Translations under genes and position numbers: made by a program
Assembly (NCBI RefSeq): GCF_028858725.1
Contig: NC_084769.1
Coordinates: 67,001 to 131,000, forward strand
Reading direction: 5' to 3'
DNA from: Colius striatus
Lineage: Eukaryota; Chordata; Aves; Coliiformes; Coliidae
Length of the DNA stretch: 64,000 bases
Notes under the pieces: generated by a model
Seen by the model: the letters and a program-made list of their open reading frames with translations, nothing else
What the model was told of the DNA's origin: nothing
The model's database searches: none
Shown here: in pieces, positions 2,422 through 59,419 of the stretch
Numbering within the stretch: position 1 is the stretch's first letter
Layout of the letters: every line of letters starts with the position of its first letter

Positions 2422-2665
2422 ACAATCCTGAAGCTGCTGGTGACGGGCTGGGCGCCCTCTCGCACGCGGGTGCTGATGCCCATCCTGCAGTACCCGCTGT
2501 ACTCGGCCACCATCGCCGAGCTGGGGGCCGTGCAGCTCGGCTACTACCTGGACGACGAACGCTGCTGGGCACTGGCGCTGAGTGAGCTGCGGCGGGCGCT
2601 GGCCGAGGGCCGCCGGCACTGCTGCCCACGGGTGCTGTGCATCATCAACTCCGGCAGCCCCACCA
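2422..2665 (+). pseudogene. GPT: GPT mid-gene exon, copy 1 (acceptor kept, cofactor motif altered)
   Basis: This 244-nt exon (81 codons plus 1 base) encodes part of the large, PLP-binding domain of alanine aminotransferase (L-alanine + 2-oxoglutarate to pyruvate + L-glutamate). It starts with TILKLLVTG and carries [16 protein letters not shown] and [11 protein letters not shown], which match vertebrate GPT closely. The acceptor CAG at 2419-2421 is present and the frame is open. The conserved INPGNPTG has become INSGSPTS, which loses the asparagine that in fold-type I aminotransferases contacts the PLP ring. The donor (cca|gtaccc) keeps GT but is weak. The exon could in principle be spliced but would give a cofactor-impaired enzyme, so it is more likely a decayed duplicate. 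Copies 1 and 2 share 'VTGWAPS'; copies 3-6 have 'VTGSAPS'. Confidence 0.8.
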
Positions 2666-2689
2666 GTACCCTGCGGCACCAAGGGCTGG

Positions 2690-4244
2690 GACGGGACCCC
2701 AGGAGTGGGATGGATCCCCAGGGGTGGGATGGGATGGGACCCCAGGGGTGGGATGGGATGGGACCCCAGGGGTGGGATGGGATGGAATGGGATGAGATGG
2801 GACTGGATGGGACCCCAGGGGTGGGATGAGATGGGACCCCAGGGGTGGGACCTCAGGGGTGGGATGGGATAGGACTACGATGGGACTCCAGGGGTGGGAT
2901 AGCACTGGGATGGGACCCTGAGGTTGGGATGGGACCCCAGGGATGGGACTTCACGGGTGGGATGGGACCCCAGGGTTGGGATGGGACTGGATGGCACCCC
3001 AGGGGTGGGATGGGATGGGATAGGACTGGATGGGACCCCAGGGTTGGGATGGGACCCCAGGGGTGGGACCTCAGAGGTGGGATGGGATAGGACTGGGATG
3101 GGACTCCAGGGGTGGGATGACACTGGGATGGGACCCTGAGGTTGGGATGGGACCCCAAGGATGGGAGTTCAGGGATGGGATGGGACCCCAGGATTGGGAT
3201 GGGACTGGATGGGACCCCAGGGGTGGGATGGGACCCCAGGGTGGGATGGGATGGAATGGGATGGGACCCCAGGGTTGGGATCGAATGGGATGGGATGGGA
3301 CTTGATTGGACCCAAGGGTTGGGATGTGATGGGACCCCAGGGGTGGGACCTCAGATGTGGGATGGGATAGGACTGCGATGGGACTCCAGGGGTGGGATGA
3401 GACTGGGACGGGACCCCAGGGGTGGGAGCCAGGGGTGGGATGGGACCCGGAGGTTGGGATTGGACCCCAGGGATGGGAACTTAGGGGTGGGATGGGACCC
3501 CAGGGGTGGGATGGGATGGGACCCCAGGGGTGGGATGGGATGGGACCCCAGGGGTGGGATGGGATGGGACTGGATGGAACCTCAGGGTTGGGATAGGATG
3601 GGACCGAAGGGGTGGGATGGGATGGGTTGGGATGGGACCCTAGGGTTGGGATGGGTCCCAAGGGGTGGGGTGGGATGGGACCCCAGGGGTGGGATGGGAC
3701 CCCAGGGGTGGGATGGGATGGGACTGGATTGGACCCAGGGGTAGGATGGGATGGGACCCCAGGGGTGGGATGAGTCCCCAGGGGTGAGGTAGGATGGGAC
3801 CCCAGGGGTGGGATGGGACCCCAGGGGTGGGATGGGATGGGACCCCAGGGGTGGGATGAGTATCCAGGGGTGGGGTGGGATGGGACCCCAGGGGTGGGAT
3901 GGGATGGGACCCCAGGGGTGGGATGGGACTTCAGGGGTGCTATGGGACCCCAATGGTGGGATGGGATGGGACCCCAGGGTTGGGATTGGATGCGACCCCA
4001 GGGGTGGGATGAGTCCCCAGGGGTGGGATGGGATGGGACCCCAGGGGTGGGATGGGACTGGATTGGACCCCAGGGGTGGGATGGGTCCCTAGGGATGGGA
4101 TCGGACCCCAGGGGTGGGATGGGATGGGACTGGATGGGACCCTAGGGTTGGGATGGGATGGCACCCCAGGGGTGGGACCTCAGGGGTGGGATGGCATAGG
4201 ATTGGGATGGGACTGCAGGGGTGGGATGAGACTGGGATGGGACC
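2690..4244. repeat. G-rich minisatellite downstream of GPT exon copy 1
   Basis: Tandem 20-bp units (ggggtgggatgggaccccag) and 25-bp variants with an extra 'gggat', some with 'acttcagg', 'acctcagg' or 'ccctgagg' substitutions. Runs such as gggg-t-ggg-at-ggg-at-ggg satisfy the G-quadruplex pattern on the plus strand throughout. No exon is seen. Confidence 0.95.
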
Positions 4245-4860
4245 CTCATTGTTCCTGTGCCCACATCATGTCCCCTCACCATCCCTGTGCCCACATTGTC
4301 TTCCCTTATTTTCCCTGTGCCAACACTGTGCCCCTCACCATCCCTGTGCCCACACCGTGTCCCACATCATCCTTGTGCGCACATCGTGTCCCACACCATC
4401 GCTGTGCCCACACCTTGTCCCACACCATCCCTATGACCACACCATGTCCGACGCAGTCCCTGTGCCCACACCGTGTCCCCTCACCATCCCTGTACCCGGA
4501 CACCATGTCCCCTCACCGTCCCTGTACCCACACCGTGTCCCCTCATTGTCCCTGTGCCCACACCGTGTCCCCCCACCTTACCTATGCCCACACTGTGTCC
4601 CCTCACCATCCATGTGCCCACACCATGTCCCCTCATGATCCCTGTGCTGACACCATGTCCCTCACCATCCCTGTGCCCACACTGTGTCCCCACACCGTCC
4701 CTATGCCCACACAATGTCCCCTCATTGTCCATGTACAGTGTCCCACACCATCCCTGTGCTCACACCGTGCTCCACACCATCCCTGTGCCCATACCATGTC
4801 CCCTCACCATCCCTGTGCCCACACTGTGCCCCTCACAATCCCTGTGCCCACACCTTTGTG
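4245..4860. repeat. CACCATCCCTGTGCCCACAC minisatellite
   Basis: Units of about 29-30 bp built on 'ccatccctgtgcccacac' plus 'cgtgtcccctca'. It begins abruptly after the G-rich array at 'gaccctcattgttcctgtg'. The same junction recurs at 13720, 49085 and 57615, so it marks the start of each exon-repeat module. Confidence 0.88.
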
Positions 4861-5865
4861 TCCTCTCACTATCCCCTTGTCCCCTAACCATCCCCGTGTC
4901 CCCTCACCACCCCGTTCTCCCCTCACCATCCCCATCTCCCCTCACCAACCCCCGTGTCCCCTCACCACCCGCTGTGTCCCCTCACCAGTCCCATGTCCCC
5001 TCACCATCCCTGTGCCCACACTGTACCCGTCACCATCCCATTGTCCCCTCACCATCCCCGTGTCCATTCACCATCCCCGTGTCCATTCACCACCCCAGTG
5101 TCCCCTCACCATCCCAGTGTCCCCTCACCCCCGCCGTGTCCCCTCACCACCCCCTTCTCCCCTCACCATCCCAGTGTCCCCTCAACCCGCCGTGTCCCCT
5201 CACCAGCCCCGTGACCCCTCACGACCCCCGTGTCCCCTCACCTGCCAAATGTCCCCTCACCACCCCCTTGTCCCCTCACCTTCCCCTTCTCCCCTCACCA
5301 CCCCCGTGTCCCCTCAACTGCCCCGTGGCCCCTCACGAGCCCCTTTTCCCCTCACCCCCCCCGTGTCCCCTCACCACCCCCATGTCCCCTCACCATCCCC
5401 TTCTCCCCTCACAACCCTTCTCCCCTCACCACCCCTGTGTCCCCTCACTATCCCCTACTCCCTTCACCGTCCCCGTGTCCCCTCACCCCCCCATGTCCCC
5501 TCACGCCCCCCGTGTCCCCTCACTAACCCATTTTCCCCTCACCACCCCTGTGTCCCCTCACCAACCCTTTTACCCTCACCACCCCCTGTCCCCTCACCAA
5601 CCCCGTTTTCCCCTCACCATCCCTGTGTCCCCTCACCACCCCCTTCTCCCCTCCAAAACCCCCGTGTTCCCTCACCAGCCCCGTGTTCCCTCACCAGCCC
5701 CATGTTCCCTCACCAGCCCCGTGTTCCCTCACCAGCCCCATGTTCCCTCACCATCTCGATGTCCCCTCATCTCCCCCGTGTCCCCTCCCCACCCCCTTCT
5801 CCCCTCCACAATCCCCGTGTCCCCTCACCATCACCTTCTCCCCTCACCATCCTCGTGTCCCCCCC
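4861..5865. repeat. C-rich minisatellite upstream of GPT exon copy 2
   Basis: Same 18-19-bp 'cctcaccacccccgtgtcc' family as 570-2345. It ends in a conserved single-copy flank ('catcgtgtccgcagcc' up to the exon) found before all six exon copies. Confidence 0.9.
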
Positions 5866-5919
5866 CATCGTGTCCGCAGCCCCCCGTCACCCTCCATCAT
5901 GCCATGCCAATGCCCTCAG

Positions 5920-6163
5920 ACAATCCTGAAGCTGCTGGTGACGGGCTGGGCGCCCTCTCGCACGCGGGTGCTGATGCCCATCCTGCAGTACCCGCTGTAC
6001 TCGGCCACCATCGCCGAGCTGGGGGCCGTGCAGCTCGGCTACTACCTGGACGACGAACGCTGCTGGGCACTGGCGCTGAGTGAGCTGCGGCGGGCGCTGG
6101 CCGAGGGCCGCCGGCACTGCTGCCCACGGGTGCTGTGCATCATCAACCCTGGCAACCCCACCG
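5920..6163 (+). CDS. GPT: GPT mid-gene exon, copy 2 (only fully intact copy)
   Basis: This 244-nt exon of alanine aminotransferase 1 (cytosolic, PLP-dependent) is the most plausible functional copy of the six. It has the AG acceptor (5918-5919), an uninterrupted frame starting TILKLLVTG, the motif INPGNPTG whose NPTG asparagine contacts PLP, and a GT donor (accg|gtaccc, weak because +5 is not G). The exon ends in codon phase 1. Joined to the exon at 26144 it restores a glycine and reads [15 protein letters not shown], as in vertebrate GPT. AELGAVQ and the RECQL4-side synteny favour GPT over GPT2. [10 protein letters not shown] carries Leu where mammalian GPT has Pro, in all six copies. The next exon is 20 kb away across minisatellite. 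Upstream exons lie outside the window or are missing. Confidence 0.85.
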
Positions 6164-6184
6164 GTACCCTGCAGCACCAAGGGC

Positions 6185-9100
6185 TGGGACGGGACCCCAG
6201 GGGTGGGATGGCATGGGATGGTACTGGATGGGACACCAGGGTTGGGATGGGATGGGACCCTAGGGATGGAACCCCAGGGGTGGGATGGGACCCTGAGGTT
6301 GGGATGGGACCCCAGGGATGGGACTTCAGGGGTGGGATGGGACCCCAGGGTTGGGATGGGACTGGATGGGACGGGTTGGGACCCCAGGGGTGGGATGGGA
6401 CGGGATGGGAAACCAGGGTTGGGATGGGATGGGTCCCCAGGGGTGGGATGGGATGGGACCCCAGGGGTGGGATGAGTTCCCAGTGGTGGGATGGGATGGG
6501 ACCCCAGGGTTGGGATGGGACCTCAGGGGTTGGATGGGACTGGAAGGGACCCCAGGGTTGGGATGGGACCACAGGGATGGGATGGGACCCCAGGGATGGG
6601 ATGGGACCTCAGGGGTGGGATGGGACCCCAGGGGTGGGATGGGACCCCAGGGGTGGGATGGGATGGTACTGGATGGGACACCAGGGTTGGGATGGGATGG
6701 GACCCTAGGGATGGAACCCCAGGGGTGGGATGGGATGGGACTCCAGGGGTGGGATGGGACACCAGGGGTGGGATGGGACCCCAGGGGTGGGATGGGATGG
6801 AATGGGATGGGATGGGCCTGGATGGGACCCCAGGGGTGGGATGAGATGGGGCCCCAGGGGTGGGACCTCAGGGGTGGGATGGGATAGGACTACGATGGGA
6901 CTCCAGGGGTGGGATGACACTGGGATGGGACCCTGAGGTTGGGATGGGACCCCAGAGATGGGACTTCAGGGGTGGGATGGCACCCCAGGGTTGGGATGGG
7001 ATGGGACCCCAGGGGTGGGACCTCAGAGGTGGGATGGGATAGGACTGGGATGGGACTCCAGGGGTGGGATGAGACCCCAGGGGTGGGACTCCAGAGGTGG
7101 GATGGGACCCTGAGGTTGGGATGGGACCCCAGGGATGGGAGTTCAGGGATGGGATGGGACCCCAGGATTGGGATGGGACTGGATGGGACCCAGGGGTGGG
7201 ATGGGACCTCAGGGGTGGGATGGGACCTCAGGGGTGGGATGGGATGGAATGGGATGGGACCCCAGGGTTGGGATCGAATGGGATGGGATGGGACTTGATT
7301 GGACCCAAGGGTTGGGATGTGATGGGACCCCAGGGGTGGGACCTCAGATGTGGGATGGGATAGGACTGCGATGGGACTCCAGGGGTGGGATGAGACTGGG
7401 ATGGGACCCCAGGGGTGGGATGGGACCCCAGGGGTGGGAGCCAGGGGTGGGATGGGACCCCAGGGGTGGGATGGGATGGGATGGGTTGGGATGGGACCCT
7501 AGGGTTGGGATGGGTCCCAAGGGGTGGGATGGGATGGGACCCCAGGGGTGGGATGGGATGGGACCCCAGGGGTGGGATGGGATCCTTGGGGTGGGATGAG
7601 TCCCCAGGGGGGGGATGGGTCCCCAGGGGGGGGATGGGTCCCCAGGGGGGGGATGGGACCCCAGGGGTGGGATGGGATGGGATGGGACTGGATTGGACCC
7701 CAGGGGTAGGATGGGATGGGACCCCAGGGCTGGGATGAGTCCCCAGGGGTGAGATAGGATGGGACCCCAGGGGTGGGACCTCAGGGGTGGGATGGGATAG
7801 GACTGGGATGGGACCCCAGGGGTGGGATGCGACCCCAGGGTTGGGATGGGACTGGATGGGACGGGTTGGGACCCCAGGGGTGGAATGGGATGGGACCCCA
7901 GGGGTGGAATGGGATGGGAACCCAGGGTTGGGATGGAACCCCAGGGTTGGGATGGGACGGGATGGGAACCCAGGGTTCGGATGGGATGGGTCCCCAGGGG
8001 TGGGATGGGATGGGACCCCAGGGCTGGGATGAGTCCCCAGGGGTGAGATAGGATGGGACACCAGGGTTGGGATCGGACCCCAGGGGTGGGACCTCAGGGG
8101 TGGGATGGGATAGGACTGGGATGGGACCCCAGGGGTGGGATGCGACCCCAGGGGTGGGACTCCAGAGGTGGGATGGGACCCTGAGGTTGGGATGGGACCC
8201 CAGGGATGGGAATTCAGGGCTGGGATGGGACCCCAGGGTTGGGATGGGACTGGATGGGACGGGTTGGGACCCCAGGGGTGGAATGGGATGGGACCCCAGG
8301 GGTGGAATGGGATGGGACTCCAGGGTTGGGATGGGATGGGAACCCAGGGTTGGGATGGGACGGGATGGGAACCCAGGGTTGGGATGGGATGGGATGGTAC
8401 TGGATGGGACACCAGGGTTGGGATGGGATGGGACGTTAGGGGTGGGACCTCAGGGGTGGGATGGGATAGGACTGGGATGGGACTCCAGGGGTGGGATGAG
8501 ACTGGGATGGGACCCCAGGGTGGGATGCGACCCCAGGGGTGGGACCCCAAGGGTGGGATGGGACCCTGAGGTTGGAATGGGACCCCAGGGATGGGACTTC
8601 AGGGGTGGGATAAGACCCCAGGGGTGGGATGGGACTAGATGGGACCTCAGGGTTGGATAGGTCCCCAGGGGTGGGATGGGATGGGACCCCAGGGGTGGGA
8701 TGGGACGGGATGGGAAACCAGGGTTGGGATGGGATGGGTCCCCAGGGGTGGGATGGGATGGGATGGGACCCCAGGGGTGGGATGAGTTCCCAGTGGTGGG
8801 ATGGGATGGGACCCCAGGGTTGGGATGGGACCTCAGGGATTGGATGGGACTGGAAGGGACACCAGGGGTGGGATGCGACCCCAGGGGTGGGACCCCAAGG
8901 GTGGGATGGGACCCTGAGGTTGGAATGGGACCCCAGGGGTGGGATGGGACCCCAGGGGTGGGATGGGATGGGATGGTACTGGATGGGACACCAGGGTTGG
9001 GATGGGATGGGACCCTAGGGATGGAACCCCAGGGGTGGGATGGGATGGGACTCCAGGGGTGGGATGGGACCCCAGGGGTGGGATGGGATGGGACTCCAGG

Positions 9101-12100
9101 GGTGGGATGGGACCCCAGGGGTGGGATGGGATGGAATGGGATGAGATGGGACTGGATGGGACCCCAGGGGTGGGATGAGATGGGGCCCCAGGGGTGGGAC
9201 CTCAGGGGTGGGATGGGATAGGACTACGATGGGACTCCAGGGGTGGGATGACACTGGGATGGGACCCTGAGGTTGGGATGGGACCCCAGAGATGGTACTT
9301 CAGGGGTGGGATGGCACCCCAGGGTTGGGATGGGATGGGACCCCAGGGGTGGGATGGGATGGGATCCCAGGGGTGGGATGGGACCCCAGGGATAGGATGG
9401 GATGGGACTGGATGGGACCCCAGGGGTGGGACCTCAGAGGTGGGATGGGATAGGACTGGGATGGGACTCCAGGGGTGGGATGAGACCCCTGGGGTGGGAC
9501 TCCAGAGGTGGGATGGGACCCTGAGGTTGGGATGGGACCCCAGGGATGGGAGTTCAGGGATGGGATGGGACCCCAGGATTGGGATGGGACTGGATGGGAC
9601 CCCAGGGGTGGGATGGGACCTCAGGGGTGGGATGGGACCTCAGGGGTGGGATGGGATGGAATGGGATGGGACCCTAGGGTTGGGATCGAATGGGATAGGA
9701 TGGGACTTGATTGGACCCAAGGGTTGGGATGTGATGGGACCCCAGGGGTGGGACCTCAGATGTGGGATGGGATAGGACTGCGATGGGACTCCAGGGGTGG
9801 GATGAGACTGGGATGGGACCCCAGGGGTGGGATGGGACCCCAGGGGTGGGAGCCAGGGGTGGGATGGGACCCGGAGGTTGGGATGGGACCCCAGGGATGG
9901 GAACTAAGGGGTGGGATGGGACCCCAGGGGTGGGATGGGACCCCAGGGGTGGGATGGGATGGGACCCCAGGGGTGGGATGAGTCCCCAGGGGTGAGATAG
10001 GATGGGACCCCAGGGGTGGGACCTCAGGGGTGGGATGGGATAGGACTGGGATGGGACCCCAGGGGTGGGATGCGACCCCAGGGGTGGGACTCCAGAGGTG
10101 GGATGGGACCCTGAGGTTGGGATGGGACCCCAGGGATGGGAATTCAGGGCTGGGATGGGACCCCAGGGTTGGGATGGGACTGGATGGGACGGGTTGGGAC
10201 CCCAGGGGTGGAATGGGATGGGACCCCAGGGGTGGAATGGGATGGGACTCCAGTGTTGGGAAGGGATGGGAACCCAGGGTTGGGATGGGACGGGATGGGA
10301 ACCCAGGGTTGGGATGGGATGGGATGGTACTGGATGGGACACCAGGGTTGGGATGGGATGGGACGTTATGGGTGGGACCTCAGGGGTGGGATGGGATAGG
10401 ACTGGGATGGGACTCCAGGGGTGGGATGAGACTGGGATGGGACCCCAGGGTGGGATGCGACCCCAGGGGTGGGACCCCAAGGGTGGGATGGGACCCTGAG
10501 GTTGGAATGGGACCCCAGGGATGGGACTTCAGGGGTGGGATGAGACCCCAGGGGTGGGATGGGACTGGATGGGACCTCAGGGTTGGATAGGTCCCCAGGA
10601 GTGGGATGGGATGGGACCCCAGGGGTGGGATGGGATGGCATGGGATGGGACTGGATGGGACCCTAGGGTTGGGATGGGATGGGACCTTAGGGGTGGGACC
10701 TCAGAGGTGCAATGGGATAGGACTGGGATGGGACTCCAGGGGTGGGATGAGACTGGGATGGGACCCCAGGGGTGGGATGCGACCCCAGGGGTGGGACCCC
10801 AAGGGTGGGATGGGACCCTGAGGTTGGAATGGGACCCCAGGGGTGGGATTTCAGGGGTGGGATGGGACTCCAGGTTTGGGATGGGACTGGATGGAACCCC
10901 AGGGTTGGGATGAGTCCCCAGGGGTGGGATGGGATGGGACCCCAGGATTGGGATGGGACTGGATGGGTCCCCAGGGGTGGGATGGGATGGGACCCCAGGG
11001 GTGGGATGAGTCCCCAGGAGTGGGATGGGACCCCAGGGGTGGGATGCGACCTCAGGGGTGGGATGGGATCCCAGGGTTGGGATGGGACTGGATGGGACCC
11101 CAGGGTTGGGATGGGATGGGACCCTAGGGGTGGGATGAGTCCCCAAAGGTGGGATGGGATGGGACCCCAGGGGTGGGATAGGACCCCAGGGGTGGGATGG
11201 GATGGGACTGGATTGGACCCCAGGGTTGGGATGGGTCCCCAGGGGTTGGATGGGATGGGACCCCAGGGGTGGGATGGGATGGGATCCCAGGGGTGGGATG
11301 GGATGGGATGGGACTGGATGGGACCCTAGGGTTGGGATGGGATGGGACCCCAGGGGTGGGATGGGATAGGATTGGGATGGGACTCCAGGGGTGGGATGAG
11401 ACTGGATGGGACCCCAGGGGTGGGATGCGACCCCAGGGGTGGGACCCCAAGGGTGGGATGGGACCCTGAGGTTGGAATGGGACCCCAGGGGTGGGACTTC
11501 AGGGGTGGGATGAGACCCCAGGGGTGGGATGGGACTGGATGGGACCCCTGGGGTGGGATGGGACTGGATCGGACACCAGGGTTGGATAGTTCCCCAGGGG
11601 TGGGATGAGTCCCCAGGGGTGGGATGAGTCTTCAGGGGTGGGATGGAATGGGACCCCAGGGGTGGGATGGGATTGGATTGGACCCCAGGGTTGGGATGGG
11701 ACCCCAGGGGTGGGATGGGATGGGACCCCAGGGTTGGGATGGGACCCCAGGTGTGGGATGGGATGGGACCCCAGGTGTGGGATGGGATGGGTACCCAGGG
11801 GTGGGATGGGATGGGACCCCAGGTGTGGGATGGAATAGGATGGGATGGGACTGGATGGAACCCTAGGGTTGGGATGGGATGGGACCTGGATTGGGACTCC
11901 AGGGGTGGGATGAGACTGGGATGGGACCCCAGGGGTGGGATGCGACCCCAGGTGTGGGAGCCAGGGGTGGGATGGGACCCGGAGGTTGGGATGGGACCCC
12001 AGGGATGGGAACTTAGGGGTGGGATGGGACCCCAGGGGTGGGATGGGACTGGATGGGTCCCCAGGGGTGGGATGGGATGGGACCCCAGGGGTGGGATGCG

Positions 12101-13719
12101 ACCTCACGGGTGGGATGGGATCCCAGGGTTGGGATGGGACTGGATGGGACCCCAGGGTTGGGATGGGATGGGACCCCAGGAGTGGGATGGGAACTGGATC
12201 GGTCCCCAGGGGTGGGATGGGATGGGACCTCAGGGGTGGGATGGGATCCCAGGGTTGGGATGGGACTGGATGGGACCCCAGGATTGGGATGGGATGGGAC
12301 CCCAGGGGTGGGATGGGTTCCCAGGCATGGGATGAGTCCCCAGGGGTGGGATGAGTCCCCAATGGTGTGATGGGATAGGACCCCAGGGGTGTGATGGGAC
12401 CTCAGGGTTGGGATGGGACCCCAGGGGTGGGATGGGATGGGTCCCCAGGGGTGGGATGGGACCCCAGAGGTTGGATGGGACCCCAGGTGTGGGATCGGAC
12501 CCCAGGGGTGGGATGGGATGGGACCCCAGGGGTGGGATGGGATGGGATGGGACTGGATGGGACCCTAGGGATGGGATGAGAGTGGGATGGGACCCCAGGG
12601 GTGGGATGTGACCCCAGGGGTGGGACCCCAAGGGTGGGATGGGACCCTGAGGTTCGAATGGGACCCCAGGGATGGGATGGGACTGGATGGTACTCCAGGG
12701 GTGGGATGAGTCCCCAGGAGTGGGATGGGATGGGACCCCAAGGGTGGGATGCGACCTCAGAGGTGGGATGGGATCCCAGGGTTGGGATGGGACTGGATGG
12801 GATCCCAGGGTTGGGATGGGACCCTAGGGGTGGGATGAGTCCCCAGGGGTGGGATGGGATGGGACCCCAAGGGTGGGATGGGACCCCAGGGGTGGGATGG
12901 GATGGGACTGGATGGGACCCCAGGGTTGGGATGGGTCCCCAGGGGTGGGATTGGACCCCAGGGGTGGGATTGGACCCCAGGGGTGGGATGGGACTGGATG
13001 GGACCCCAGGGTTGGGATGGGATGATACCCCAGGGGTGGGATGGGATAGGACTGGGATGGGACTCCAGGGGTGGATTGAGACTAGGATGGGACCCCAAGG
13101 GTGGGATGCGACCACAGGGGTGGGATGGGATGTGACCCCAGGGTTGGGATGGGATGGGAACCCAGGGGTGGGATGGGATGTGACCCCAAGGGTGGGATGA
13201 GTCCCCAGGGGTGGGATGGGAGGGGACCGCAGGGGTGGGATGCGACCTCAGAGGTGGGATGAGACCCCAGGGTTGAGATGGGATGGGACCCCAGGGGTGG
13301 GATGGGACCCCAGGGGTGGGATTGGATGGGACCCCAGGGTTGGGATGGGACCCCAGGGTTGTGGTGGGATGGGATGGGAACCCAGGGGTGTGGTGGGATG
13401 GGATGGGAACCCAGGGGTGTGGTGGGATGGGATGGGAACCCAGGGGTGGGATGAGTATCCAGGGGTGGGGTGGGATGGGACCCCAGGGGTGGGATGGGAC
13501 CCCAGGGGTGGGATGGGACCCAATGGTTGGGGTGGGATGGAATGGGACCCCAGGGGTGGGATGAGTCCCCAGGGGTGGGATGGAATGGGATGGGATGGGA
13601 CTGGATGGGACCCTAGGGTTGGGATGGGATAGGATCCCAGGGGTGGGACCTCAGGGGTGGGATGGGATGGGATAGGACTGGGATGGGACTCCAGGGGTGG
13701 GATGAGACTGGGATGGGAC
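6185..13719. repeat. G-rich minisatellite, 7.5 kb
   Basis: Continuous array of the 20/25-bp ggggtgggatgggaccccag family, with higher-order blocks (for example the segment near 8067-8560 reappears near 10000-10490). Long Gly/Trp/Asp- and Pro/His-rich open frames occur in all frames because the units lack stop codons; they are not genes. Confidence 0.95.
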
Positions 13720-14455
13720 CCTCATTGTTCCTGTGCCCACACTGTGATCCTCACCATCCCTGTGCCCACACTGTGTCTCACACCATCCCTGTGCCCACAG
13801 CGTGTCCCCTCATTGTCACTGTGCCCACACCGTGTCCCACACCATCCTTGTACCGACATCGTGTCCCACACCATCGCTGTGCCCACACCTTGTCCCACAC
13901 CATCCTTATGCCCACACCATGTCCGACACCATCCCTGTGCCCACACCGTGTCCCCTCATTGTCCCTGTGCCCACAGTGTGCCCTCACCATCCCTGTGCCC
14001 ACACCGTGTCCCCTCATTGTCCCTGTGCCCACAGTGTGCCCTCACCATCCCTGTACCCACACCATGTCCCACACCATCCCTATGACCACACTGTGCCCCT
14101 CCCAATCCATGTGCCCACACTGTGGCCCCCCACCATCCCTGTGCCCGGACACCATGTCCCCTCACCATCCCTGTACCCACACCGTGTCCCCTCATTGTCC
14201 CTGTGCCCACACCGTGTCCCCCCACCTTACCTATGCCCACACTGTGTCCCCTCACTATCAATGTGCCCACACCATGACCCATAACATCCCTGTGCCGACA
14301 CCATGTCCCTCACCATCCCTGTGCCCACACTGTGCCCCCACACTGTCCCTATGCCCACACAATGTCCCCTCATTGTCCATGTACAGTGTCCCACACCATC
14401 CCTGTGCCCACACCGTGCTCCACACCATCCCTATGCCCATACCATGTCCCCTCAC
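13720..14455. repeat. CACCATCCCTGTGCCCACAC minisatellite, second block
   Basis: Same 29-30-bp family as 4245-4860, starting at the same 'gaccctcattgttcctgtg' junction. The closest counterpart is 57615-58290. Confidence 0.88.
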
Positions 14456-46340: not shown

Positions 46341-46364
46341 GTACCCTGCGGCACCAAGGGCTGG

Positions 46365-49085: not shown

Positions 49086-49735
49086 CCTCATTGTTCCTGT
49101 GCCCACATCATGTCCCCTCACCATCCCTGTGCCCACATTGTCTTCCCTTATTTTCCCTGTGCCAACACTGTGCCCCTCACCATCCCTGTGCCCACACCGT
49201 GTCCCACATCATCCTTGTGCGCACATCGTGTCCCACACCATCACTGTGCCCACACCTTGTCCCACACCATCCTTATGCCCACACCATGTCCGATGCAGTC
49301 CCTGTGCCCACACCGTGTCCCCTCATTGTCCCTGTGCCCACAGTGTGCCCTCACCATCCCTGTACCCACACCGTGTCCCCTCACCATCCCTGTACCCACA
49401 CCGTGTCCCCTCATTGTCCCTGTGCCCACACCGTGTCCCCCCACCTTACCTATGCCCACACTGTGTCCCCTCACCATCCATGTGCCCACACCATGTCCCC
49501 TCATGATCCCTGTGCCGACACCATGTCCCTCACCATCCCTGTGCCCACACTGTGTCCCCACACCGTCCCTATGCCCACACAATGTCCCCTCATTGTCCAT
49601 GTACAGTGTCCCACACCATCCCTGTGCCCACACCGTGCTCCACACCATCCCTGTGCCCATACCATGTCCCCTCACCATCCCTGTGCCCACACTGTGCCCC
49701 TCACAATCCCTGTGCCCACACCTTTGTGTCCTCTC
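49086..49735. repeat. CACCATCCCTGTGCCCACAC minisatellite, third block
   Basis: Counterpart of 4245-4860, entered through the same 'gaccctcattgttcctgtg' junction. Confidence 0.88.
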
Positions 49736-50895
49736 ACTATCCCCTTGTCCCCTAACCATCCCCGTGTCCCCTCACCACCCCGTTCTCCCCTCACCATCCC
49801 CATCTCCCCTCACCAACCCCCGTGTCCCCTCACCACCCGCTGTGTCCCCTCACCAGTCCCATGTCCCCTCACCATCCCTGTGCCCACACTGTACCCGTCA
49901 CCATCCCATTGTCCCCTCACCATCCCCGTGTCCATTCACCATCCCCGTGTCCATTCACCACCCCCTTGTCCCCTCACCATCCCAGTGTCCCCTCACCCCC
50001 GCCATGTCCCCTCACCACCCCTTTTTCCCCTCAACCTCCTTCTCCCCTCACCACCCCCTTCTCCCCTCACCACCCCCTTCTCCCCTCACCATCCCCTTCT
50101 CCCCTCACCACCCCCTTCTCCCCTCACCATCCCAGTGTCCCCTCACCCCCGCCGTGTCCCCTCACCACCCCTTTTTCCCCTCAACCTCCTTCTCCCCTCA
50201 CCACCCCCTTCTCCCCTCACCATCCCCGTGTCCCCTCACCATCCCCATGTCCCCTCACCCCCGCCGTGTCCCCTCAACCCCCCGTGTCCCCTCACCAGCC
50301 CCGTGACCCCTCACGACCCCCGTGTCCCCTCACCTGCCAAATGTCCCCTCACCACCCCCTTGTCCCCTCACCTTCCCCTTCTCCCCTCACCACTCCCGTG
50401 TCCCCTCAACTGCCCCGTGTCCCCTCACGAGCCCTTTTCCCCTCACCCCCCCCGTGTCCCCTCACCACCCCCATGTCCCCTCACCATCCCCTTCTCCCCT
50501 CACAACCCTTCTCCCCTCACCACCCCTGTGTCCCCTCACTATCCCCTACTCCCTTCACCGTCCCCGTGTCCCCTCACCCCCCCGTGTCCCCTCACGCCCC
50601 CCGTGTCCCCTCACTAACCCATTTTCCCCTCACCACCCCTGTGTCCCCTCACCAACCCTTTTACCCTCACCAACCCCGTTTTCCCCTCACCATCCCTGTG
50701 TCCCCTCACCACCCCCTTCTCCCCTCCAAAACCCCCGTGTTCCCTCACCAGCCCCGTGTTCCCTCACCAGCCCCATGTTCCCTCACCATCTCGATGTCCC
50801 CTCATCTCCCCCGTGTCCCCTCCCCACCCCCTTCTCCCCTCCACAATCCCCGTGTCCCCTCACCATCCCCTTCTCCCCTCACCATCCCCATGTCC
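49736..50895. repeat. C-rich minisatellite upstream of GPT exon copy 5
   Basis: Counterpart of 4861-5865. A local block around 49980-50160 is itself duplicated in tandem. Confidence 0.9.
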
Positions 50896-50954
50896 CCCCC
50901 CATCGTGTCCGCAGCCCCCCGTCGCCCTCCATAATGCCATGCCAATGCCCTCAA

Positions 50955-51198
50955 ACAATCCTGAAGCTGCTGGTGACGGGCTCGGCGCCCTCTCGCACGC
51001 GGGTGCTGATGCCCATCCTGCAGTACCCGCTGTACTCGGCCACCATCGCCGAGCTGGGGGCCGTGCAGCTCGGCTACTACCTGGACGACGAACGCTGCTG
51101 GGCACTGGCGCTGAGTGAGCTGCGGCGGGCGCTGGCCGAGGGCCGCCGGCACTGCTGCCCACGGGTGCTGTGCATCATCAACTCCGGCAGCCCCACCA
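50955..51198 (+). pseudogene. GPT: GPT mid-gene exon, copy 5 (acceptor lost, cofactor motif altered)
   Basis: 244 nt and open, but the acceptor is CAA (50952-50954) and the PLP motif reads INSGSPTS as in copy 1. The donor is cca|gtaccc. By position it pairs with the intact copy 2 (shift 45035), yet its motif resembles copy 1 and its VTGSAPS resembles copy 3, a mosaic that suggests sequence exchange between copies. Confidence 0.82.
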
Positions 51199-51224
51199 GT
51201 ACCCTGCGGCACCAAGGGCTGGGA

Positions 51225-54200
51225 CGGGACCCCAGGGGTGGGATGGCATGGGATGGTACTGGATGGGACACCAGGGTTGGGATGGGATGGGACCCTAGGG
51301 ATGGAACCCCAGGGGTGGGATGGGACCCTGAGGTGGGGATGGGACCCCAGGGATGGGACTTCAGGGGTGGGATGGGACCCCAGGGTTGGGATGGGACTGG
51401 ATGGGACGGGTTGGGACCCCAGGGGTGGGATGGGACGGGATGGGAAACCAGGGTTGGGATGGGATGGGTCCCCAGGGGTGGGGTGAGTTCCCAGTGGTGG
51501 GATGGGATGGGACCCCAGGGTTGGGATGGGACCTCAGGGGTTGGATGGGACTGGAAGGGACCCCAGGGTTGGGATGGGACCACAGGGGAGGGATGGGACC
51601 CCAGGGGTGGGATGGGACCCCAGGGGTGGGATGGGATGGGATGGGACTGGCTGGGACGCCAGGGTTGGGATGGGATGGGACCCTAGGGATGGAACCCCAG
51701 GGGTGGGATGGGATGGGACTCCAGGGGTGGGATGGGACCCCAGGGGTGAGATAGGATGGGACACCAGGGTTGGGATCGGACCCCAGGGGTGGGACCTCAG
51801 GGGTGGGATGGGATAGGACTGGGATGGGACCCCAGGGGTGGGATGAGATGGGACCCCAGGGGTGGGACCTCAGGGGTGGGATGGGATAGGACTACGATGG
51901 GACTCCAGGGGTGGGATGACACTGGGATGGGACCCTGAGGTTGGGATGGGACCCCAGAGATGGGACTTCAGGGGTGGGATGGCACCCCAGGGTTGGGATG
52001 GGATGGGACCCCAGGGGTGGGATGGGATGGGACCCCAGGGATGGGACCCCAGGGGTGGGACCTCAGAGGTGGGATGGGATAGGACTGGGATGCGACCCCA
52101 GGGGTGGGACTCCAGAGGTGGGATGGGACCCTGAGGTTGGGATGGGACCCCGGGGATGGGAGTTCAGGGATGGGATGGGACCCCAGGATTGGGATGGGAC
52201 TGGATGGGACCCCAGGGGTGGGATGGGACCTCAGGGGTGGGATGGGACCTCAGGGGTGGGATGGGATGGAATGGGATGGGACCCCAGGGTTGGGATCGAA
52301 TGGGATGGGATGGGACTTGATTGGACCCAAGGGTTGGGATGTGATGGGACCCCAGGGGTGGGACCTCAGATGTGGGATGGGATAGGACTGCGATGGGACT
52401 CCAGGGGTGGGATGAGACTGGGATGGGACCCCAGGGGTGGGATGGGACCCCAGGGGTGGGATGGGACCCGGAGGTTGGGATGGGACCCCAGGGATGGGAA
52501 CTTAGGGGTGGGATGGGACCCCAGGGGTGGGATGGGATGGGACCCCAGGGGTGGGATGGGATGGGACTGGATGGAACCTCAGGGTTGGGATAGGATGGGA
52601 CCCAAGGGGTGGGATGGGATGGGTTGGGATGGGATGGGACCCTAGGGTTGGGATGGGTCCCAAGGGGTGGCATGGGATGGGACCCCAGGGGTGTGATGGG
52701 ATGGGACCCTAGGGATGGGATGGGATCCTTGGGGTGGGATGAGTCCCCAGGGGGGGGATGAGTCCCCAGAGGTGGGATGGGTCCACAGGGGTGGGATGGG
52801 TCCACAGGGGTGGGATGGGATGCGATGGGACTGGATTGGACCCCAGGGGTAGGATGGGATGGGACCCCAGGGCTGGGATGAGGCCCCAGGGGTGAGATAG
52901 GATGGGACACCAGGGTTGGGATCGGACCCCAGGGGTGGGACCTCAGGGGTGGGATGGGATAGGACTGGGATGGGACCCCAGGGCTGGGATGCGACCCCAG
53001 GGGTGGGACTCCAGAGGTGGGATGGGACCCTGAGGTTGGGATGGGACCCCAGGGATGGGAATTCAGGGCTGGGATGGGACCCCAGGGTTGGGATGGGACT
53101 GGATGGGACGGGTTGGGACCCCAGGGGTGGAATGGGATGGGACTCCAGTGTTGGGATGGGATGGGATGGGAACCCAGGGTTGGGATGGGATGGGATGGTA
53201 CTGGATGGGACACCAGGGTTGGGATGGGATGGGACCTTAGGGGTGGGACCTCAGGGGTGGGATGGGATAGGACTGGGATGGGACTCCAGGGGTGGGATGA
53301 GACTGGGATGGGACCCCAGGGTGGGATGCGACCCCAGGGGTGGGACCCCAAGGGTGGGATGGGACCCTGAGGTTGGAATGGGACCCCAGGGGTGGGATTT
53401 CAGGGGTGGGATGGGACTCCAGGTTTGGGATGGGACTGGATGGAACCCCAGGGATGGGATGAGTCCCCAGGGGTGGGATGGGATGGGACCCCAGGGGTGG
53501 GATGAGTCCCCAGGAGTGGGATGGGACCTCAGGGGTGGGATGGGATCCCAGGGTTGGGATGGGACTGGATGGGACCCCAGGGTTGGGATGGGATGGGACC
53601 CTAGGGGTGGGATGAGTCCCCAAAGGTGGGATGGGATGGGACCCCAGGGGTGGGATAGGACCCCAGGGGTGGGATGGGATGGGACTGGATTGGACCCCAG
53701 GGTTGGGATGGGTCCCCAGGGGTTGGATGGGATGGGATGGGACCCCAGGGTTGGGATGGAATGGGATGGGATGGGACTGGATGGGACCCTAGGGTTGGGA
53801 TGGGATGGGACCCCAGGGGTGGGACCTCAGGGGTGGGATGGGATAGGATTGGGATGGGACTCCAGGGGTGGGATGAGACTGGATGGGACCCCAGGGGTGG
53901 GATGCGACCCCAGGGGTGGGACCCCAAGGGTGGGATGGGACCCTGAGGTTGGAATGGGACCCCAGGGGTGGGACTTCAGGGGTGGGATGAGACCCCAGGG
54001 GTGGGATGGGACTGGATGGGACCCCTGGGGTGGGATGGGACTGGATGGGACACCAGGGTTGGATAGTTCCCCAGGGGTGGGATGAGTCCCCAGGGGTGGG
54101 ATGAGTCTTCAGGGGTGGGATGGAATGGGACCCCAGGGGTGGGATGGGATTGGATTGGACCCCAGGGTTGGGATGGGTCCCCAGGGGTGGGATGGGATGG

Positions 54201-57200
54201 GATGGGACCCCAGGGTTGGGATGGGACCCCAGGTGTGGGATGGGATGGGTACCCAGGGGTGGGATGGGATGGGTACCCAGGGGTGGGATGGGATAGGATG
54301 GGATGGGACTGGATGGAACCCTAGGGTTGGGATGGGACCTGGATTGGGACTCCAGGGGTGGGATGAGACTGAGATGGGACCCCAGGGGTGGGATGCGACC
54401 CCAGGGGTGGGATGGGATGGGGTGGGATGGGACCCGGAGGTTCGGATGGGACCCCAGGGATGGGAACTTAGGGGTGGGATGGGACCCCAGGGGTGGGATG
54501 GGACTGGATGGGTCCCCAGGGGTGGGATGGGACTGGATGGGTCCCCAGGGGTGGGATGCGACCTCAGGGGTGGGATGGGATCGGATGGGACCCCAGGGTT
54601 GGGATGAGATGGGACCCCAGGGGTGGGATGGGTTCCCAGGCATGGGATGAGTCCCCAGGGGTGGGATGAGTCCCCAATGGTGTGATGGGATAGGACCCCA
54701 GGGGTGTGATGGGACCTCAGGGTTGGGATGGGACCGGAGGTGTGGGATGGGATGGGTCCCCAGGGGTGGGATGGGACGGGACCCCAGGGTTGGGATGAGT
54801 CCTCAGGGGGTGATGGGATGGGTCCCCAGGGGTTGGATGGGATGGGACCCCAGGGGTGGGATGGGATGGGACCCCAGGGGTGGGATGGGATGGCATGGGA
54901 TGGGACTGGATGGGACCCTAGGGTTGGGATGGGATGGGACCTTAGGGGTGGGACCTCAGAGGTGCAATGGGATAGGACTGGGATGGGACTCCAGGGGTGG
55001 GATGAGACTGGGATGGGACCCCAGGGGTGGGATGCGACCCCAGGGGTGGGACCCCAAGGGTGGGATGGGACCCTGAGGTTGGAATGGGACCCCAGGGGTG
55101 GGATTTCAGGGGTGGGATGGGACTCCAGGTTTGGGATGGGACTGGATGGAACCCCAGGGATGGGATGAGTCCCCAGGGGTGGGATGGGATGGGACCCCAG
55201 GGGTGGGATGAGTCCCCAGGAGTGGGATGGGACCTCAGGGGTGGGATGGGATCCCAGGGTTGGGATGGGACTGGATGGGACCCCAGGGTTGGGATGGGAT
55301 GGGACCCTAGGGGTGGGATGAGTCCCCAAAGGTGGGATGGGATGGGACCCCAGGGGTGGGATAGGACCCCAGGGGTGGGATGGGATGGGACTGGATTGGA
55401 CCCCAGGGTTGGGATGGGTCCCCAGGGGTTGGATGGGATGGGATGGGACCCCAGGGTTGGGATGGAATGGGATGGGATGGGACTGGATGGGACCCTAGGG
55501 TTGGGATGGGATGGGACCCCAGGGGTGGGACCTCAGGGGTGGGATGGGATAGGATTGGGATGGGACTCCAGGGGTGGGATGAGACTGGATGGGACCCCAG
55601 GGGTGGGATGCGACCCCAGGGGTGGGACCCCAAGGGTGGGATGGGACCCTGAGGTTGGAATGGGACCCCAGGGGTGGGACTTCAGGGGTGGGATGAGACC
55701 CCAGGGGTGGGATGGGACTGGATGGGACCCCTGGGGTGGGATGGGACTGGATGGGACACCAGGGTTGGATAGTTCCCCAGGGGTGGGATGAGTCCCCAGG
55801 GGTGGGATGAGTCTTCAGGGGTGGGATGGAATGGGACCCCAGGGGTGGGATGGGATTGGATTGGACCCCAGGGTTGGGATGGGTCCCCAGGGGTGGGATG
55901 GGATGGGATGGGACCCCAGGGTTGGGATGGGACCCCAGGTGTGGGATGGGATGGGTACCCAGGGGTGGGATGGGATGGGTACCCAGGGGTGGGATGGGAT
56001 AGGATGGGATGGGACTGGATGGAACCCTAGGGTTGGGATGGGACCTGGATTGGGACTCCAGGGGTGGGATGAGACTGAGATGGGACCCCAGGGGTGGGAT
56101 GCGACCCCAGGGGTGGGATGGGATGGGGTGGGATGGGACCCGGAGGTTCGGATGGGACCCCAGGGATGGGAACTTAGGGGTGGGATGGGACCCCAGGGGT
56201 GGGATGGGACTGGATGGGTCCCCAGGGGTGGGATGGGACTGGATGGGTCCCCAGGGGTGGGATGCGACCTCAGGGGTGGGATGGGATCGGATGGGACCCC
56301 AGGGTTGGGATGAGATGGGACCCCAGGGGTGGGATGGGTTCCCAGGCATGGGATGAGTCCCCAGGGGTGGGATGAGTCCCCAATGGTGTGATGGGATAGG
56401 ACCCCAGGGGTGTGATGGGACCTCAGGGTTGGGATGGGACCGGAGGTGTGGGATGGGATGGGTCCCCAGGGGTGGGATGGGATGGGACCCCAGAGGTTGG
56501 ATGGGACCCCAGGTGTGGGATGGGACCCCAGGGGTGGGATGGGATGGGACCCCAGGGGTGGGATGGGATGGGATGGGACTGGATGGGACCCTAGGGATGG
56601 GATGAGAGTGGGATGGGACCCCAGGGGTGGGATGTGACCCCAGGGGTGGGACCCCAAGGGTGGGATGGGACCCTGAGGTTCGAATGGGACCCCAGGGATG
56701 GGACTTCAGGGGTGGGATGGGACCCCAGGGTTGGGATGGGACTGGATGGGACCCCAGGGTTGGGATGGGACCCTAGAGGTGGGATGAGTCCCCAGGGGTG
56801 GGATGGGATGGGACTGGATGGGACCCCAGGGTTGGGATGGGTCCCCAGGGGTGGGATTGGACCCCAGGGGTGGGAGGGGTCCACAGGGGTAGGATGGGAC
56901 TGGATGGGACCCCAGGGTTGGGATGGGATGGAATGGGATGGGATCCCAGGGGTGGGATGGGATGGAATGGGATGGGATAGGACTGGGATGGGACTCCAGG
57001 GGTGGATTGAGACTAGGATGGGACCCCAAGGGTGGGATGCGACCACAGGGGTGGGATGGGATGTGACCCCAGGGTTGGGATGGGATGGGAACCCAGGGGT
57101 GGGATGGGATGTGACCCCAAGGGTGGGATGAGTCCCCAGGGGTGGGATGGGAGGGGACCGCAGGGGTGGGATGCGACCTCAGAGGTGGGATGAGACCCCA

Positions 57201-57615
57201 GGGTTGAGATGGGATGGGACCCCAGGGGTGGGATTGGATGGGACCCCAGGGTTGGGATGGGACCCCAGGGGTGTGGTGGGATGGGATGGGAACCCAGGGG
57301 AGGGATGAGTCTTCAGGGGTGGGATGGAATGGGACCCCAGGGGTGGGATGGGACCCCAGGGTTGGGATTGGATGCGACCCCAGGGTTGGGGTGGGATGGG
57401 ACCCCAGATTTGGGATGGGACCCAATGGTTGGGATGGGATGGAATGGGACCCCAGGGGTGGGATGAGTCCCCAGGGGTGGGATGGAATGGGATGGGATGG
57501 GACTGGATGGGACCCTAGGGTTGGGATGGGATAGGATCCCAGGGGTGGGACCTCAGGGGTGGGATGGGATAGGACTGGATGGGACTCCAGGGGTGGGATG
57601 AGACTGGGATGGGAC
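51225..57615. repeat. G-rich minisatellite, 6.4 kb, downstream of GPT exon copy 5
   Basis: Same 20/25-bp family, counterpart of 6185-13719. It includes a nearly perfect 1706-bp tandem duplication (listed separately). Confidence 0.95.
53321..56480. repeat. Near-identical 1706-bp tandem duplication in the G-rich array
   Basis: 53321 to about 54773 is repeated at 55027 to about 56479 with a constant shift of 1706 bp. Over at least 850 bp every translated frame is identical between the two copies, so they are very recent or an assembly duplicate. Confidence 0.88.
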
Positions 57616-58290
57616 CCTCATTGTTCCTGTGCCCACACTGTGACCCTCACCATCCCTGTGCCCACACTGTGTCTCACACCATCCCTGTGCCCACAGCGTG
57701 TCCCCTCATTGTCACTGTGCCCACACCGTGTCCCACACCATCCTTGTACCGACATCGTGTCCCACACCATCGCTGTGCCCACACCTTGTCCCACACCATC
57801 CTTATGCCCACACCATGTCCGACACCATCCCTGTGCCCACACCGTGTCCCCTCATTGTCCCTGTGCCCACAGTGTGCCCTCACCATCCCTGTACCCACAC
57901 CATGTCCCACACCATCCCTATGACCACACTGTGCCCCTCCCAATCCATGTGCCCACACTGTGGCCCCCCACCATCCCTGTGCCCGGACACCATGTCCCCT
58001 CACCATCCCTGTACCCACACCGTGTCCCCTCATTGTCCCTGTGCCCACACCGTGTCCCCCCACCTTACCTATGCCCACACTGTGTCCCCTCACTATCAAT
58101 GTGCCCACACCATGACCCATAACATCCCTGTGCCGACACCATGTCCCTCACCATCCCTGTGCCCACACTGTGCCCCCACACTGTCCCTATGCCCACACAA
58201 TGTCCCCTCATTGTCCATGTACAAACAGTGTCCCACACCATCCCTGTGCCCACATCGTGCTCCACACCATCCCTATGCCCATACCATGTC
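57616..58290. repeat. CACCATCCCTGTGCCCACAC minisatellite, fourth block
   Basis: Counterpart of 13720-14455 with only scattered substitutions. Confidence 0.88.
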
Positions 58291-59125
58291 CCCTCACCAT
58301 CCCCGTGTCCCCTCACCGTCCCCTTCTCCGCTCACCACGCCCGTGTCCCCGCACCTGCCCCACGCCCCGTCACCACTCCCTTGTCCCCTCAACCTCCCCT
58401 TCTCCCCTCACCATCCCCATCTCCCCTCACCATCCGCTGTGTCCCCTCACCAGTCCCATGTCCCCTCACCATCCCCTTCTCCGCTCACCATCCCCGTGTC
58501 CATTCACCATACCATTCTCCCCTCACTACTCCCTTGTACCCTCACCATCCCAGTGTCCCCTCACCAGCCCCGTGGCCCCTCACCATCCCCGTGGCCCCTC
58601 ACCACCCCCTTTTCCCCTCAACCTCCCCTTCTCCCCTCACCATGCCCGTCTCCCCTCACCATCCCCATGTCCCCTCACCATCCCTGTCTCCCCTCACCAT
58701 CCCCTTATCCCCTCACCCCATGTGTCCCCTCACCTGCCCAATGTCCCCTCCACAATGCCTTGTACCCTGACCCGCCCATGTCCCCTCACCATCCCCTTCT
58801 CCCCTCACCATCCCCGTGTCCCCTCACCACCCCGGTATCCCCTCATCATCCCTTTCTTCCCTCACCACGCCCTTGTCCCCTCACCAGCCCCGTGTCCCCT
58901 CACAATCCCTGTGTCCCCTCAACATGCCCTTATCCCCTCACCACCCCCATGTCCTCTCACCTTCCCCTTCTCCCCTCACCACCCCCGTGTCCCCTCACCA
59001 GCCGCATGTCCCCTCACCCCCCCCGTGTACCATCACCATCCCTGTGCTCACACTGTGCCCCTCACCACCCCCTTCTCCCCGCACAACCCCCTTCTCCCCT
59101 CACCATCCCCATGTCCCCCCCCATC
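58291..59125. repeat. C-rich minisatellite upstream of GPT exon copy 6
   Basis: Counterpart of 14456-15262. Confidence 0.9.
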
Positions 59126-59175
59126 GTGTCCGCAGCCCACCGTCGCCCCCCATCATGCCATGCCTGTGCCCTCAA

Positions 59176-59419
59176 ACAATCCTGAAGCTGCTGGTGACGG
59201 GCTCGGCGCCCTCTCGCACGCGGGTGCTGATGCCCATCCTGCAGTACCCGCTGTACTCGGCCACCATCGCCGAGCTGGGGGCCGTGCAGCTCGGCTACTA
59301 CCTGGACGACGAACGCTGCTGGGCACTGGCGCTGAGTGAGCTGCGGCGGGCGCTGGCCGAGGGCCGCCGGCACTGCTGCCCACGGGTGCTGTAAATCATC
59401 AACCCTGGCAACCCCACCG
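59176..59419 (+). pseudogene. GPT: GPT mid-gene exon, copy 6 (stop codon, acceptor lost)
   Basis: 244 nt. The cysteine codon in RVLCIIN has become TAA (59392-59394), ending the frame just before an otherwise intact INPGNPTG. The acceptor is CAA rather than CAG. By position it is the counterpart of copy 3, which shares the acceptor loss but not the stop, so the stop arose after the two diverged. Confidence 0.88.

Follow-up and report, generated by a model that had tools for sequence, protein, structure and literature searches.

Gene-bearing tandem units near chromosome ends are known from human subtelomeric duplicons and from D4Z4, whose unit measures 3.3 kb. Coding VNTRs such as LPA KIV-2 multiply an exon through a tandem repeat that takes in introns, and the KIV-2 copies are spliced into one protein. 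In birds, the accessible part of PMC12954441 describes sequence or exon stuttering as a local process on chicken dot chromosomes, with 1 to 44 copies per expansion, in which the copies are partial exon ends and the gene itself stays intact. Avian subtelomeric segmental duplications are biased towards interchromosomal copies, according to the accessible part of PMC13431229, in whose main text the terms GPT, LRRC14 and gene fragments are absent. Our searches of a collection of open-licence articles, without their supplementary files, brought up no article on a GPT/RECQL4/LRRC14 repeat in birds.

Here we analyse a window of 64,000 nucleotides from Colius striatus (C13:67001-131000). It begins 67 kb and ends 131 kb into a contig of 30 Mb, in an assembly of 1.21 Gb. 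With a probability that we put at roughly 0.85, the window is part of a subtelomeric macrosatellite, a repeat of relic genes that is exchanged among chromosome ends and in which exon modules carried by minisatellites are nested. It resembles human subtelomeric duplicons and D4Z4-type macrosatellites in having kilobase tandem units with gene sequence that appear to be exchanged between ends, but its unit is about ten times longer than that of D4Z4 and is a broken-up block of several genes in which exon modules are nested. Duplication here is both tandem and interchromosomal, which differs from the bias described for other birds in the accessible part of PMC13431229. With the chicken dot chromosomes it shares, as far as that account (PMC12954441) is accessible, an avian host, minisatellite-filled introns and extra exons with splice sites; unlike stuttering, it presents whole exons in relic gene pieces near many chromosome ends.

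Six exon copies in two repeat units

The first-pass annotation had described six occurrences of a single 244-nt exon of GPT (alanine aminotransferase), each with a C-rich array before it, about 50 bp of flank upstream and a G-rich array after it. BLAST and reading of the sequence confirmed the exons at all six starts, together with this arrangement around each, the flank being shared between copies (Table 1). Against the first copy, the other five show 97.5-99.6% identity over 243-244 nt (BLAST E ≤ 1e-117), and the base skew flips sign across the copies. We call this exon n and the two that follow n+1 and n+2, the latter being the last GPT exon found in the unit. Copy A2 aligns with human ALAT2 (PDB 3ihj) over 81 of 81 residues (E 6e-32), and the Pfam family Aminotran_1_2 scores 17.3 bits on exon n, just under its cut-off of 19.7.

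The proposal that the exon and the minisatellite arrays on either side of it were duplicated together as a module, to a high copy number and not by duplication of a whole gene, is supported. That the six copies belong to one GPT locus is not: three modules lie in each of two head-to-tail units of about 44 kb, which belong to a repeat family. Exons n+1 and n+2 had been taken as single-copy, which is correct within the window but not beyond it, as both recur 100% identical past base 64000 (C13:134154-134233 and C13:134317-134453); they are seen once in the window because its edge cuts unit B.

Only copy A2 is intact in acceptor, frame, motif and donor. The AG acceptor is lost in four of the six copies, one is frameshifted and one carries a stop, so that, counting changes in the conserved motif, five are damaged. 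Searched by tblastn, the window extended by 16 kb downstream contained nothing that matches ALAT2 residues 1-192 and 347-523, and no GPT exons other than n, n+1 and n+2. Given this damage and the absence of these residues, we read the locus as relic DNA and not as a working GPT gene. The splice sites, the frames and the missing exons speak against a single GPT gene that carries the exon six times, and we reject that reading. As in LPA KIV-2, an exon has been multiplied by a tandem repeat that takes in its introns; here, in contrast, five of the six copies in the window carry damage, and 244 nt cannot be divided by three.

Table 1 Features of the window (positions counted from its first base)
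Feature	Position	Strand	Details
Unit A of the probable subtelomeric macrosatellite	1..44558	+	colinear with 44559 onward; phase arbitrary, position 1 = 44559
Unit B, cut by window edge	44559..64000	+	continues in C13:131001-147000
C-rich minisatellite upstream of A1	580..2336	.	19-bp units, then ~29-bp units
Like C-rich arrays	4254-5862; 13730-15258		upstream of A2; upstream of A3
GPT exon n, copy A1	2422..2665	+	AG acceptor, open frame, NPGNPT -> SGSPT, donor A/GT
G-rich minisatellite downstream of A1	2683..4232	.	TGGGATGGGACCCCAGGGG type
Like G-rich arrays	6180-13718; about 15645-25515		after A2; after A3
GPT exon n, copy A2	5920..6163	+	AG acceptor, open frame, NPGNPT motif, G/GT donor
GPT exon n, copy A3	15316..15559	+	acceptor AA, open frame
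GPT exon n+1, 80 nt	26144..26223	+	ALAT2 tblastn; 100% identical in unit B
GPT exon n+2, 137 nt	26307..26443	+	3ihj match E 1e-13; SISK at lysine motif
Terminal exon, fucolectin-type-lectin-like	26921..27073	-	translation; 99.3% copy in unit B
CpG-rich promoter-like block, copy 1 of 3	28065..28350	.	CpG observed/expected 0.86-0.94
CpG-rich block, copies 2 and 3	about 30890-31170; 34453-34730		adjoin RECQL4 exon 1
RECQL4 first-exon piece, human residues 1-28	30763..30846	-	tblastn E 4e-5, 50% identity
RECQL4 first-exon piece, second copy	34326..34409	-	tblastn E 4e-5, 50% identity
LRRC14 3' part, human residues 176-493, two exons	36822..38613	+	tblastn; frame shift near 37085
C8orf82 (DUF4505) last exon	39841..40359	-	Pfam PF14956 E 1.3e-47
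C8orf82 short upstream exon	42186-42236
GPT exon n, copy B1	46098..46340	+	acceptor AA; 1-nt deletion = frameshift, end one base short
GPT exon n, copy B2	50955..51198	+	acceptor AA, SGSPT motif, donor A/GT
GPT exon n, copy B3	59176..59419	+	acceptor AA, in-frame stop

Gene pieces in the unit

The unit would derive from one ancestral neighbourhood, GPT - RECQL4 - LRRC14 - C8orf82, now reduced to fragments: three GPT exons, RECQL4 exon 1, the 3′ part of LRRC14, and C8orf82. A tblastn search of the window and of C13:131001-147000 did not find residues 1-175 of LRRC14. Beyond the window, the gene pieces of unit A return in unchanged order in unit B, as far as LRRC14, where the examined stretch ends. 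The CpG-rich promoter-like block is present in three copies in each of the two units read, with two of the three beside RECQL4 exon 1, and on C13 the RECQL4 pieces point toward the telomere. It is conceivable, if unlikely, that function keeps the unit at chromosome ends, with the CpG block as a former gene promoter that now drives a telomere-ward, TERRA-like RNA, and the repeat as a shared end element.

A repeat family near chromosome ends

An internal 31-mer of exon n gave 138 matches genome-wide at up to three mismatches (places listed for 100 of them; backwards-pattern control, 0), and exact copies numbered 78 with an AG and 34 with an AA acceptor. For exon n+2, 60 exact 28-mer copies fall into 25 contig/strand groups; their spacing, and with it that of the units, is about 41 kb (median 40,970 bp over 35 intervals, 33 of which measure 26-60 kb). 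The modules of C-rich array, exon n and G-rich array number one to four upstream of exon n+2 where counted; of the 112 exact exon-n copies, 97 are followed on the same strand by an n+2 exon at a distance of 4.5-43 kb. One or the other of these exons is present on 21 contigs. Not every end has the repeat: the exact-match lists of these two exons contain nothing on C1, C2, C4, C5, C9 and C10, and C1, C4 and C9 are long contigs. C8orf82 gave 61 candidates, of which the 40 scored all match at 99-100% and lie near contig ends. All copy numbers refer to one assembly.

At its start, the C13 contig has 5 kb of N followed by CCCTAA repeats to about 8.9 kb, and telomere repeats are present at four of the seven contig ends examined. 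Nearly all exon n+2 copies (58/60) lie within 222.5 kb of a contig end. For 55 of the 60, on long contigs, the near end is known, and all of these point away from it; the other five (C16, C26, C39, C42, C45) were left out of this count, the end of C42 being uninformative because the contig measures only 57.5 kb. Exceptions to the orientation are two minus-strand exon-n copies on C15 (320707 and 361122), far from the start. Kilobase tandem units near the telomeres of several chromosomes, in a single orientation to the telomere and with probable exchange between ends (see below), are what characterises subtelomeric macrosatellites and duplicons.

Local exon stuttering would offer another history, in which a GPT intron expanded and copied the neighbouring exon while the gene remained otherwise functional. 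The minisatellite-filled introns holding exon copies in the accessible part of PMC12954441 are a likeness, and stuttering may well describe the inner step, that is, the one to four modules per unit. As a full account it is quite unlikely, being contradicted by the genome-wide copies of C8orf82, exon n+2 and exon n. What is repeated here on 21 contigs is the entire 244-nt exon together with some 50 bp of intron, against exon parts of 20-187 bp in adjacent introns in the accessible part of that article; the copies are not confined to an adjacent intron, in the window and the 16 kb after it no intact gene coding region accompanies them and only exons n+1 and n+2 of GPT stand alongside, and the neighbouring gene pieces are repeated too.

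Coding constraint and parental genes

Among 42 sampled copies of exon n, 30 of which were picked for AG, so that the sample is AG-enriched, 23 have acceptor, donor, frame and motif all intact. In the sampled copies, a rough tally of distinct changes gave 23 nonsynonymous to 13 synonymous, against a neutral ratio of about 2.05:1. For C8orf82, 21 copies (20 of them taken from the 40 top-scoring among 61 candidates, a choice biased towards conserved copies) showed 17 nonsynonymous to 4 synonymous changes (neutral 2.2:1) and two indels, and 18 had neither stop nor indel. These simple counts show no coding constraint on either exon among the sampled copies. Exon n+2 is unusually uniform, with 33 of 40 scored copies (from 65 candidates) 100% identical, which could also come from constraint. 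Exon n+1 is variable at 5 of 80 positions, compared with 8 of 544 in its upstream intron (6 sequences), and differs in two of the five other copies compared. We set aside purifying selection as the cause of the uniformity, since exon n+1 beside it is not conserved and the four compared loci had been chosen as the best exon n+2 matches.

The intact fractions just given, 23/42 and 18/21, are what might be expected if GPT or C8orf82 were a working multi-copy gene, expressed and selected, with AG copies used and AA copies silenced; the 244-nt length of exon n also fits, as including two copies would shift the frame. This reading is nevertheless highly improbable, because nonsynonymous to synonymous counts are not below neutral for either exon and GPT here lacks its first and last exons. 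A tandem-exon gene of the KIV-2 type would keep splice sites and frame in its copies and be under coding constraint. Here one of the six window copies is fully intact, as are 23 of 42 in the AG-enriched sample, and no such constraint is seen. Queries with the N- and C-terminal parts of ALAT2 found one gene only in the assembly, a GPT2-like gene on C16. A human RECQL4 helicase query of the assembly gave seven matches from 24 candidates, all short and at most 58% identical, which are probably other RecQ genes; no full RECQL4 was visible with this query, and the absence of GPT1 may therefore reflect incompleteness of the assembly and not loss.

Probable exchange between copies and proposed formation of the repeat

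The AA-acceptor variant occurs in nine contig/strand groups, seven of which also have AG. Across 42 exon-n copies, 99 of 351 site pairs show all four gametes, giving a minimum of nine recombination events in about 300 bp, although recurrent mutation could account for some of these pairs. Within the window, the closest exon pair is A3-B3 (3/334 differences), while A1 differs from B2 at 6 positions and from B1 at 7; the distances follow the unit pairing poorly, which we read as exchange. The shared and reassorted variants point to exchange between chromosome ends, as judged from sequence.

On C13, the acceptor pattern AG,AG,AA / AA,AA,AA occurs twice, offset by about 87.3 kb. The two A1 regions differ by no substitutions in 3225 bp and by 3 indels, and the two B2 regions by 6 substitutions in 3242 and 2 indels. 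That haplotypes or collapsed reads were wrongly joined end to end, a suspicion raised by this almost identical A-B pair and by the status of false duplications as a known error class (accessible part of PMC9516828), is very improbable as the source of the whole family, although it might inflate a few copies: unit markers in the 25 contig/strand groups vary in spacing, variants and module number, and over their first 580 bp, outside the main arrays, 18 of 571 aligned bases are mismatched between units A and B, with 9 gaps besides.

For the macrosatellite, we envisage that the exon modules arose when minisatellite arrays of the same kind crossed over unequally or slipped during repair, with exon n riding as a passenger. 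Whole-unit unequal crossing-over would then have built the tandem stacks, including the ~87-kb A-B pair found twice on C13, and ectopic exchange between chromosome ends may have spread and partly homogenised the units. A vertebrate gene neighbourhood would in this way have turned into a chromosome-end repeat, with at least 60 units in one assembly and exon modules multiplying inside them. Such a repeat could lead gene predictors to false GPT, LRRC14 and C8orf82 paralogues and may bear on bird genes that seem missing or multiplied. Its uniform orientation and reassorted variants would make end-to-end exchange between chromosomes measurable in a bird.

Apart from DUF4505, nothing passed the Pfam cut-off on nine window pieces, and an Rfam scan of the window at gathering scores returned no family. 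The terminal exon at 26921..27073, also without a Pfam match, resembles a fucolectin-type lectin, and a polyadenylation-like AATAAA was seen by eye beside it at about 26815. The sequence also contains pieces, recognised by eye, that are presumably CR1-like.

Exon copies in two related units

The first-pass annotation had claimed six copies of a 244-nt GPT exon (exon n) in this window, and the multiplication proved both real and larger than claimed, with 138 matches genome-wide. A BLAST search of the window with the first exon returned six full-length matches at the claimed starts, 2422, 5920, 15316 (A1–A3), 46098, 50955 and 59176 (B1–B3), with the other five 97.5–99.6% identical to the first. 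Six further matches of 13–40 nt (E 0.15–6.4) were taken as chance-level. The translated exon is alanine aminotransferase, and A2 aligned with human ALAT2 across all 81 residues. Every copy has a C-rich array on one side and a G-rich array on the other, where strand composition flips sign. Opposite-strand G-rich units at 20018–20084 and 22916–22969 are short inversions within the array.

Of the six, A2 alone has AG at the acceptor, G/GT at the donor, the conserved NPGNPT motif and an open frame. The acceptor is AA instead of AG in A3, B1, B2 and B3; B1 also lacks one base and B3 has an in-frame stop. SGSPT is encoded by A1 and B2, and B1 carries the same altered bases out of frame. At 244 nt, the exon would throw off the reading frame if two copies were spliced in.

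The longest matches within the window make 1–16.5 kb colinear with 44.6–60.4 kb, pairing copies 1–4, 2–5 and 3–6. Over 1.4–2.8 kb of array plus exon, paired copies are 87–91% identical, compared with 80–86% in cross pairs. The exons obey this pairing in part: A3 and B3 are closest (3/334 differences), while A1 is closer to B2 than to B1. Unit B continues on the same contig (C13:131001–147000). There the two following GPT exons, n+1 and n+2, are both 100% identical to those of unit A and a lectin exon is 99.3% identical, and the CpG block is present three times and RECQL4 exon 1 twice. The stretch ends inside the LRRC14 piece, whose first part (270 of 369 bp) matches at 98.1%.

Gene pieces within the unit

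An ALAT2 query against the window and the next 16 kb found only residues 193–346, GPT ending after n+2. Downstream follow a lectin-like terminal exon, CpG-rich blocks, RECQL4 exon 1, a frame-shifted 3′ part of LRRC14, and C8orf82.

Features of the repeat unit downstream of the exon n copies
Feature	Position	Remark
GPT exon n+1	26144-26223	
GPT exon n+2	26307-26443	
Block of 2.8-3.6 kb containing a CpG-rich, promoter-like stretch, three in tandem	28065-35480	Two copies adjoin RECQL4 exon 1

A 39-bp minisatellite at 35579–36815, its unit with GGGTTAGGGG or GGCTTAGGGG (telomere-like, by eye), leads into the truncated LRRC14 sequence. Pieces at 27080–27360 and 38850–39120 look alike by eye and are presumably parts of CR1-like retroelements.

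GPT, RECQL4, LRRC14 and C8orf82 are neighbours on human 8q24.3, which gives the block the look of an ancient stretch of synteny, now fragmented. N- and C-terminal ALAT2 queries found four exons each in one gene on contig C16 (74–91% identical), evidently GPT2. These queries found no GPT1 end exons in the assembly, nor was a full RECQL4 found there; the parental block is therefore lost, too diverged for the queries, or unassembled.

A subtelomeric macrosatellite

The repeat is a subtelomeric macrosatellite built from broken-up genes, and within it lie exon modules borne by minisatellites. Its structure is observed in one assembly (1.21 Gb, 191 contigs; window C13:67001–131000); the exchange mechanism behind it we infer. 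Across the assembly, an internal exon n 31-mer gave 138 matches with up to three mismatches (100 places listed), and its backwards control none. Exact 24-mers across the acceptor identified 78 AG and 34 AA copies. For exon n+2, 60 exact copies fall into 25 contig/strand groups with a median spacing of 40,970 bp, the 58 measurable copies lying within 222.5 kb of a contig end. Orientation could be read for 55 of the 60, those on long contigs with a known near end, and all 55 face away from it; the other five are on C16, C26, C39, C42 and C45. The distribution of C8orf82 matches that of n+2, at 99–100% identity (40 of 61 candidates scored). Telomere repeats stand at four of seven contig ends examined, including that of C13. 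Contigs C1, C2, C4, C5, C9 and C10 have no exact exon n or n+2 match.

Most exact exon n copies (97/112) precede a same-strand n+2 exon by no more than 45 kb; 15 fall outside any unit assignment. Units hold one exact copy in 14 cases, two in 20, three in 13 and four in one, and 12 units have none. Two minus-strand copies (C15:320707 and 361122), 0.32–0.36 Mb from the contig start, break the orientation rule, which we read as an inversion or mis-join. Among the first 100 places listed, a GAG/CGG form of exon n, which we take to encode DEER as in human GPT, comprises most copies on C3 and at the starts of C6, C8 and C12; a GAC/CGC form is carried by C13 and most of C11, and also at the right-hand ends of C8 and C12. 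Subfamilies thus defined appear partly end-specific.

No description of this GPT/RECQL4/LRRC14 unit turned up among the open-licence articles searched. Interchromosomal duplication close to chromosome ends is reportedly favoured in birds (PMC13431229). The nearest likeness for the inner exon modules is the sequence stuttering described in 2026 on chicken dot chromosomes (PMC12954441), where the copies are local, consist of partial exons and lie in genes that still work; GPT, RECQL4 and LRRC14 are absent from the main text of that paper.

Probable exchange and a check for coding constraint

Crude change counts gave no sign of constraint on exon n (42 copies) or C8orf82 (21 copies), so the gene pieces look like passengers. 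In exon n the distinct changes number 23 nonsynonymous to 13 synonymous (neutral ratio 2.05), six of 42 copies have indels and 23 are intact; C8orf82 has 17 to 4 (neutral 2.2), one of the 17 a stop, and two indels besides. Speaking against this, exon n+2 is almost uniform: of the 40 copies scored among 65 candidates, 33 are identical. We attribute that uniformity to recent exchange, but constraint would look the same.

Along C13 the acceptor pattern AG,AG,AA / AA,AA,AA occurs twice, offset by ~87.3 kb, and is a higher-order A–B pair. Between its two A1 regions there are three indels and no substitution in 3225 bp, and between its two B2 regions two indels and six substitutions in 3242 bp; A2 and B2, in contrast, differ at 90 of 2946 positions. 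Among 42 distinct exon n copies (45 found less three duplicates; 30 of the 42 picked via the AG pattern), 351 pairs of sites are informative and 99 of them have every one of the four combinations, suggesting at least nine recombinations within ~300 bp, barring repeated mutation of sites.
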